Assembly (NCBI GenBank): GCA_014803525.1
Contig: JAAVBP010000001.1
Span: 1-64,000 of the forward strand
From: a bacterium
Lineage (GTDB): Bacteria; Pseudomonadota; Alphaproteobacteria; Rs-D84
Direction: 5' to 3'
Length of the DNA stretch: 64,000 nt
The position numbers and the translations under genes were made by a program. Numbering within the stretch: position 1 is the stretch's first letter; the number at the start of each line of letters is the position of its first letter. The notes beneath the pieces were generated by a model. The model had not been told where the DNA came from, did no database searches, and was given only the letters and a program-made list of their open reading frames with translations. Below, in pieces: positions 26,029 through 59,229 of the stretch.

Positions 26029-26216
26029 TTGCAATTCAGAAAATAATCCGTTATAATATGCGTGCATCGGGTGATGACCGATGCGGGGCTTAACAACCTC
26101 GGTAATCAAAATTCTCCAACCGTGGTTGGAGGGCTGTGATATATCTGAATAAACAGCGCTATTGATTACATAGTTGTTAACCTCCAACCGTCTCTCATCA
26201 AGACGGGCTTTTTTTA
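26029..26216 (+). ncRNA. Structured leader RNA, family A, copy 1 (with promoter and terminator)
   Basis: Promoter TTGCAA-N17-TATAAT (26029-26057). The RNA starts near 26063: hairpin GCATCGG-GTGATGA-CCGATGC; a long-range helix TTAACAAC/GTTGTTAA stacked on GTAATCAA/TTGATTAC, closing hairpins CTCCAACC/GGTTGGAG and GCTGT/ACAGC; then CCTCCAACCG running into terminator CCGTCT-CTCATCA-AGACGG with T8. The second copy (59041-59229) keeps these helices with different bases. TGATGA in the first loop can pair with TCATCA in the terminator loop. CCTCCAACC can alternatively pair with GGTTGGAGG, an antiterminator. Confidence 0.8.
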
Positions 26217-26242
26217 TTAACAAAAAGTAAGGAGAAGAAAAA

Positions 26243-26464
26243 ATGGCAAAAACAATAATAATCAGCGCAGACTATTTCGGAACCGGAATCCAGATGGCGC
26301 GCCAGCTGGACGGTATCACACCAGAACAGATGGCACATCTGTTGGATTGTGATACCAAGATGCTGCATCGGTACGAGGCCGGCCTGGAACTATTGCCCAA
26401 AGCCGTATTGCGGCGCGTATTTCGATGCGCCGCCAAAATGGATGCCGCGATGGAAAACGTGTAA
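26243..26464 (+). CDS. Small XRE-like helix-turn-helix protein
   Basis: The 73-residue protein has a helix-turn-helix-like pattern (GIQMARQLDGITPEQMAHLL, DCDTKMLHRYEAGLELLPKA) and a basic C-terminal helix. AAGGAGAAGAAAAA precedes the ATG. It follows leader A copy 1 by about 25 bases after the terminator, so its expression would need readthrough. The 83-aa gene at 58768 has the same size class, fold and leader. Confidence 0.7.
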   Translation: MAKTIIISADYFGTGIQMARQLDGITPEQMAHLLDCDTKMLHRYEAGLELLPKAVLRRVFRCAAKMDAAMENV

Positions 26465-58767: not shown

Positions 58768-59019
58768 TTATCTGTGGCACATGCATGGCGGAATCCAATC
58801 ATCATCAAACAGTTGTTTTATATACTCTGCGTCTTTACCGGCGGCGTGCATAAATTGATATAATTGATATGCAGTCATTGTAACCATGCCCTTTTCCAGG
58901 GCAAAATATACACCCGGTGAAATGTGCATTTTGTCGGCAACCTTTTGCGGCATCAATCCTTTGCGGGCGCGACGCATGTGTTTTTTCAGTTTATCTTGAA
59001 ATTCTGCTTCTGTTTTCAT
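58768..59019 (-). CDS. Small XRE-like helix-turn-helix protein (leader A gene 2)
   Basis: The 83-residue protein has an HTH-like stretch (LMPQKVADKMHISPGVYFAL, EKGMVTMTAYQLYQFMHAAG), the same size class as the gene at 26243, and ends with Cys-containing WIPPCMCHR. TTAAGGGGGATACA precedes the ATG at 59019. It is directly preceded by leader A copy 2 with a terminator. It ends just before the Cys-rich gene on the other strand. Confidence 0.7.
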   Translation of the reverse strand: MKTEAEFQDKLKKHMRRARKGLMPQKVADKMHISPGVYFALEKGMVTMTAYQLYQFMHAAGKDAEYIKQLFDDDWIPPCMCHR

Positions 59020-59040: not shown

Positions 59041-59229
59041 GAAATAAAAAGTCCGCATTGATGAGATGCGGTTGGAGGTTAGCTACTACAGTATCATAGT
59101 CCCGCTTATTTATATATGTCACGGGCCTCCAACCAACGTTGGAGTTTTTTGATACTGAAGGCAGCTACACCTCGCACCGGCCATCACCCGATGCATGGCC
59201 ATTATAATTGATTATTTTCAAATTTGCAA
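59041..59229 (-). ncRNA. Structured leader RNA, family A, copy 2 (with promoter and terminator)
   Basis: On the minus strand: TTGCAA-N17-TATAAT (59229-59201), same spacing as in copy 1, and after 7 bases hairpin GCATCGG-GTGATGG-CCGGTGC; then TAGCT/AGCTA and CAGTATCA/TGATACTG enclosing CTCCAAC/GTTGGAG and CCCG/CGGG; then CCTCCAACCG into terminator CCGCAT-CTCATCA-ATGCGG and T5. Several helices differ from copy 1 in both strands (GCTGT/ACAGC to CCCG/CGGG; CCGTCT/AGACGG to CCGCAT/ATGCGG), while loops GTGATGR, CTCATCA and GTGAYATAT are kept. Confidence 0.8.

Follow-up and report, generated by a model that had tools for sequence, protein, structure and literature searches.

A multi-copy alphaproteobacterial leader RNA related to sRNA-Xcc1 and phage C4: a probable self-addressed attenuator ahead of regulator and exported-protein genes

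What kind of RNA is encoded by the 188-bp element at positions 26029-26216 (plus strand) of the window, the 64,000-nucleotide stretch of an alphaproteobacterial contig analyzed here, and how is it related to known RNAs? The element consists of a promoter, an RNA and a terminator, and the initial annotation had reported a second copy with the same signals on the opposite strand. Both copies, with their promoters and terminators, were present at the reported places. The sequence TTGCAA-N17-TATAAT is exact in each of them (26029-26057, plus strand; about 59229-59201, minus strand), and their minimum free energy (MFE) folds have z-scores of -6.1 and -6.2, with none of 200 shuffles as stable. The features are as follows.

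26029..26057, plus strand: promoter of copy 1 by sequence, with -35 TTGCAA (26029-26034), N17 and -10 TATAAT (26052-26057)
26064..26084, plus strand: 5' hairpin GCATCGG-GTGATGA-CCGATGC, the loop of which pairs with the terminator loop
26085..26100, plus strand: hairpin A, GGGG-CTTAACAA-CCTC, a covarying local stem with the 'a1' address, the complement of a', as its loop
26102..26108, plus strand: 'b1' address GTAATCA, complement of the hairpin C loop b'
26114..26120, plus strand: decoy strand CTCCAAC, the 5' strand of P3 and rival of y for strand X
26124..26132, plus strand: strand X, GGTTGGAGG, the 5' strand of the C4-type closing stem, with three-strand covariation
26133..26157, plus strand: P4 stem-loop, equivalent of C4 'P2', with a conserved A-rich loop and two-sided changes in 5 of 5 pairs
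26159..26173, plus strand: hairpin C, CTAT-TGATTAC-ATAG, with antisense b' as its loop, 100% paired and with two-sided changes in 3 of 4 pairs
26174..26180, plus strand: antisense segment a', TTGTTAA, which pairs with the hairpin A loop
26181..26189, plus strand: strand y, CCTCCAACC, partner of X in the PX stem
26188..26215, plus strand: intrinsic terminator by sequence, CCGTCT-CTCATCA-AGACGG followed by GC and a T run
26243..26464, plus strand: gene behind copy 1 for a 73-aa XRE/HTH_31-like protein (weak Pfam HTH_31), with its ATG 53 nt past y and the SD sequence AAGGAG
58768..59019, minus strand: gene behind copy 2 for an 83-aa HTH-like protein of the family MKTEAEFQDKLKKHMRRARK..., common to copies in L019, L026 and L027
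59043..59229, minus strand: copy 2, whole element, with its core at 59070-59173

The genome to which the window belongs (1.08 Mb, 27 contigs) contains about 24 near full-length copies with 68-82% identity in a BLAST search with the 188-bp query. A covariance search, proposed in the initial annotation, was run with a model of the element core (R1) and returned further copies, 39 in this genome, as well as compensatory changes. Since several copies sit at contig ends, the real number is probably higher. The observation is larger than first reported (two copies noted, 39 in the genome), and the element is a real high-copy RNA and not a product of chance. Over all copies, a promoter-like score of at least 9/12 was reached by 70%, compared with 15% of shuffles. 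Tandem arrays of three to four copies, 200-280 nt apart, were observed at G000:C4:170362-170998, G000:C22:14893-15520, G062:C9:22458-23277 and G062:C8:13590-14130, every copy having a separate promoter-like sequence and most a separate terminator-like hairpin. The upstream flanks GGCAATCCAGTAAATAATTTGC and GGGGGTGGCTATAATAATTTGC, common to L009, L013, L014, L022, L027 and others, lie beside palindromic GC-rich repeats, and this vicinity suggests a possible route of copy spread.

Within the same genus, the element was found in 34 of 39 genomes, with a maximum of 48 copies at E ≤ 0.001 and 50 at E ≤ 0.01, and in the order 175 of 201 genomes, representing 18 of 23 genera, carry it. A broader model built only from family members (R2) detected it in 28 of 385 genomes and 22 of 276 genera of a class-wide sample, a sparser distribution than in the order. 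Pattern matches in L117 (viral) and L118 were discarded as chance, the motif occurring there without the architecture of the element.

The structure analysis took in 152 distinct copies, in which the order from 5' to 3' is 5' hairpin, hairpin A, b1, an optional small hairpin, CTCCAAC, X, P4, hairpin C, a', y and terminator. Over the family, hairpin A has a stem of 4 bp and a loop of 8 nt, hairpin C has the consensus CTAY/RTAG, and strand X opens with a GGW motif, with GG at its start in nearly all copies. The terminator abuts or overlaps strand y in 143 of the 152 copies; the terminal 2 nt of y are the initial 2 nt of the terminator stem. At 26209-26228 of the window, and likewise in many of the copies, the terminator's T run gives way to an A run complementary to it directly ahead of the ribosome site (e.g., TTTTTCATTCGCAATGAAAAGGAG in L145), and the two could form a second hairpin in read-through RNA. 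A leader peptide starting within GTGATATATATGAATAA was rejected, its start codon not being conserved.

Covariation upheld the helices for which compensatory changes had been claimed, except for the outer P1 pairing. The covariation set comprised 71 distinct rows, mostly from outside the own genome, and covered hairpin A, PX, P4 and hairpin C. In these rows 97.8% of cells were paired in the nested set, compared with at most 53% in any slid register, and changes on both sides were seen in 16 of 22 pairs (hairpin A, X:y, P4 and hairpin C). The outer helix that had been predicted between GAGG and a 3' CCTC was not borne out, as GAGG pairs locally with a CCTC 8 nt downstream. In copies with TGGG/CCCA and AAGG/CCTT the local pairing is intact whereas the long-range one is broken, and hairpin A therefore took the place of the outer P1 helix of the MFE fold; GTGG/CCAC is another variant of this local stem, the loop of which pairs with a 3' segment. 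Pairing of the hairpin A loop with this segment, a', gave a z-score of 26.6 against swapped strands, and pairing of the hairpin C loop with b1 a mean stem of 6.7 (swapped, 4.8; z = 23). Complementarity of a'/b' to the upstream a1/b1 reached z = 32, self versus swapped, and the 39 copies in the own genome carry 38 distinct a/b address pairs. A contact between the 5' loop and the terminator loop, also predicted initially, was seen in 'type 1' copies, where TGAT goes with ATCA in 26 and TGAC with GTCA in 13 copies, without any crossed combination; the other nine type-1 loops are without the motif. No loop-loop contact was found in the second ('GTGTT' loop) subtype.

The alternative pairing of CCTCCAACC with GGTTGGAGG was likewise upheld, and a third strand, the 5' CTCCAAC, covaries as well. 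Strand X can pair with either y or the upstream CTCCAAC, and changes in the three strands go together, giving sets (in the order decoy/X/y) such as CTCCTGA/GTCAGGAGG/CCTCCTGAC, CTCTCGC/GGCGAGAGG/CCTCTCGCC and TTTCTGC/GGCAGGAAG/CTTCCTGCT. P3 (decoy:X) taken alone covaries too. Since X, y and the decoy strand change together, both of the mutually exclusive helices, P3 and X:y, are by the evidence of the aligned copies under selection. By nearest-neighbor energies in a nested calculation, the decoy/cis-paired fold is preferred to X:y by 12-16 kcal/mol. Formation of X:y takes only about 1 kcal/mol from the terminator, such that the two structures are nearly compatible. As the energies favor the decoy fold and X:y barely costs the terminator, they lend little support to direct antitermination by X:y.

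The small HTH-like genes noted behind both window copies were confirmed, with a weak HTH_31 match at copy 1 and no Pfam match for the 83-aa protein behind copy 2. A start codon lies 40-60 nt past y in 114 of 150 copies. HTH_31 matches were obtained for 40 of 103 downstream proteins, with outer-membrane barrels among the rest, and a crude signal-peptide rule marks about 32 of 110 as exported. By sequence, the downstream genes encode mostly XRE-type HTH or exported proteins. In G064, one paralogous exported-protein family (MKKHLIIAGIICAASIPPAYAVTKCV...) is found behind eight copies (L145, L147-L149, L155-L158), and the one member scanned (L145) had no Pfam match.

An Rfam scan of the window returned no family at cut-off, and nothing was obtained over the element in the own-genome loci at E ≤ 5. 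The C4 model RF01695 (cut-off, 45 bits) had no match at E ≤ 10 in the own genome (G000), with a P1 control at 68.8 bits. RF02221, the Rfam family of sRNA-Xcc1 (PMC2996969, PMC12444791), never reached its cut-off of 53 bits within the family, with best scores of 45.5 bits in L169 and 37.8 bits in the own genome. The element in L169, a member from a distant order, gives a full-length RF02221 match (45.5 bits; E 6e-7, search space 501 nt), and its 5' part matches RF03163, c4-a1b1, with 26.5 bits. Further RF02221-like elements below cut-off occur in the own genome, one of which, L180, has a terminator of the window type. R2 in turn finds sRNA-Xcc1 loci of other Proteobacteria, 8 of 30 at E < 0.02 over the full length (best, 6.5e-6), and these matches reach into hairpin A.

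The RF02221 consensus is equivalent to X, P4, hairpin C, a' and y, and the fold that defines sRNA-Xcc1, with a closing stem, a P4-type stem, hairpin C and a terminal segment, nested and covarying, is found in the family. An upstream a1/b1 complement is common to both, with z = 10.8 at the sRNA-Xcc1 loci, where it consists of a hairpin and a segment outside the Rfam model, and z = 32 in the family, and sRNA-Xcc1 is also often located upstream of a DNA-binding or antirepressor-like gene. The two differ at the ribosome site, where sRNA-Xcc1 loci have a second complement as in the P1 c4/ant system (z = 7.6, compared with 2.0 in the family), and in a terminator behind the C4 domain, present in 143 of 152 family copies but in only 1 of 26 sRNA-Xcc1 loci. 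In 24 of 26 sRNA-Xcc1 loci a terminator-like hairpin instead separates a1/b1 from the C4 domain. A covarying decoy strand is found in the family only. That the decoy strand is ancestral to the sRNA-Xcc1 loci was unsupported (z = 0.1), and the GCGG of these loci, considered as antiterminator of their upstream hairpin, gave the same result for self and swapped strands. The terminator-like hairpin carries a T run in the sRNA-Xcc1 loci L182-L209, and P1 c4 (L213) shows one by eye; a hairpin with a T run between target and C4 domain is possibly an attenuator of classic C4 modules. The sRNA-Xcc1 loci of L183, L188, L190, L191 and L206 lie directly 5' of phage antirepressor-like genes (BRO/KilA-N/Rha type, by N-terminal sequence), and such neighbors would lend supporting evidence to a c4-ant type origin of sRNA-Xcc1.

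C4 antisense RNA is used by phage P1 for immunity, and the C4 RNA of P1/P7 is cut by RNase P at GGW, yielding an RNA of about 77 nt. In P1 c4, a1/b1 are located upstream and a2/b2 at the ribosome site. The family has in common with P1/P7 C4 the three-stem layout, the a'/b' antisense segments, a1/b1 upstream in the same transcript, and GGW at the 5' end of the closing stem, the motif at which RNase P cuts in P1/P7 C4 and in Acinetobacter baumannii (PMC5320573). Unlike P1/P7 C4, the family has no a2/b2 at the downstream gene (z = 2.0) and carries an intrinsic terminator directly behind the C4 domain, and about 40 copies stand ahead of XRE-HTH or exported proteins, whereas P1/P7 C4 regulates a phage antirepressor. 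An a2/b2 target at the ribosome-binding region was matched in a few copies (TTAACAA in the window copy and in L012) but overall no better than with swapped strands.

Homology of the RNA to sRNA-Xcc1 and the P1 c4 system is well supported by architecture and by profile matches through intermediates; the 3' half shows the sRNA-Xcc1/C4 fold and the 5' half corresponds to the C4 'a1/b1' target. Of the initial description, the part that speaks of a covarying attenuator or sRNA, its terminator placed before a small HTH gene, holds; that of an undescribed class does so only in part, given this homology. As far as sequence can tell, the family represents a new branch of the known C4/sRNA-Xcc1 kind, strongly rearranged and amplified. 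We consider it probable that a divergent C4-type antisense module was rebuilt as a compact self-addressed attenuator/sRNA leader and copied dozens of times.

Two other multi-copy RNA sets resemble the family. The C4-like Group 1 sRNAs of A. baumannii are abundant, with 21 copies in one genome, and have a variable address-like a' region as in the family, but they were reported as sRNAs and not as terminated gene leaders, with no decoy or switch described (PMC5320573). Brt1-9/Trp1-9 of Bartonella, also an alphaproteobacterium, were described as unique to that genus and not linked to C4, with Brt abundant and trp silent (PMC5387305). Like the family, Brt is a multi-copy structured RNA, of about 200 nt, with a terminator-like 3' end directly 5' of small XRE-HTH genes (PMC5387305), a likeness of layout.

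That the copies work independently as trans-acting sRNAs, the role suggested for the 21 C4-like sRNAs of A. baumannii, with the downstream genes as unrelated hitch-hikers, appears rather unlikely. The A. baumannii RNAs are indeed abundant and multi-copy (PMC5320573), a promoter-like sequence and a terminator accompany each copy examined, and some tandem copies have no gene between them (C4:170362-170998, C22:14893-15520, G062:C9). However, the fixed distance of 40-60 nt to a start codon with an SD sequence (114 of 150) and the repeated pairing with HTH or exported-protein families argue for a leader. Moreover, no recurrent second or trans target site was found in 223 kb (20%) of the own genome, where the matches were limited to the strands of the copies themselves and to scattered sites attributed to chance.

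Quite improbable is a new class of ligand-binding riboswitch, present in many copies and with transcription termination as its output. The bistable P3/PX pairing, the conserved A-rich P4 loop, the adjacent terminator and the tight gene spacing would all fit such a riboswitch, and c-di-GMP riboswitches are used in many copies. The P4 loop and closing stem are, however, common to the sRNA-Xcc1/C4 antisense RNAs, the a/b segments vary by copy like addresses (38 pairs in 39 copies) and unlike an aptamer core, the targets have no metabolic theme, and positive evidence for a metabolite was not obtained. A dispersed mobile or repetitive (MITE-like) element with incidental structure could account for the high copy number, the alike upstream flanks of many copies and the copies at contig ends. 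It is extremely improbable, being already contradicted by covariation, with two-sided changes in 16 of 22 pairs and three strands changing together, and by conservation over the order at a fixed position before genes.

For the preferred reading, a self-addressed C4-type leader, the parts, their order and pairing partners, the exclusivity of P3 and X:y, the terminator and the gene spacing are given by sequence and covariation, and from them we infer the following mechanism. From the promoter, a predicted transcript of about 160 nt contains the a1/b1 target, the decoy, the C4-like domain and the terminator. By default, most transcripts would end at the terminator, leaving the downstream gene low and the short RNA abundant. 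With X:y paired, the native C4 domain would form, and cleavage by RNase P ahead of GGTT could yield a C4-like RNA of about 70 nt; with X paired to the decoy no such release would occur, the decoy thereby gating folding or processing. The freed RNA may act in trans on the a1/b1 of its own locus and so break the cis pairing of nascent leaders, although cis pairing alone would equally explain the a/b covariation. Such recognition would shift the P3/PX balance and hence termination, with either sign, and the outcome would be a private feedback loop at each locus over its regulator or surface gene.

The finding joins sRNA-Xcc1 and C4/c4-a1b1, Rfam families usually listed apart, as one module, and points to a phage immunity module rearranged and multiplied to at most about 50 copies per 1-Mb genome across an order of small-genome Alphaproteobacteria. 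Its two-state structure is backed by covariation and directly testable, and the family may explain the puzzling Brt/Trp system of Bartonella, the layout of which is the same. Whether the copies form an order-wide orthogonal RNA network of domesticated, phage-immunity-derived antisense-gated attenuators is a tentative proposal to which we give somewhat less than an even chance. If it is true, dozens of leaders of about 160 nt per genome of about 1 Mb would each control one regulator or surface-protein gene, with an antisense regulator, a private address, a bistable switch and a terminator all in one transcript.
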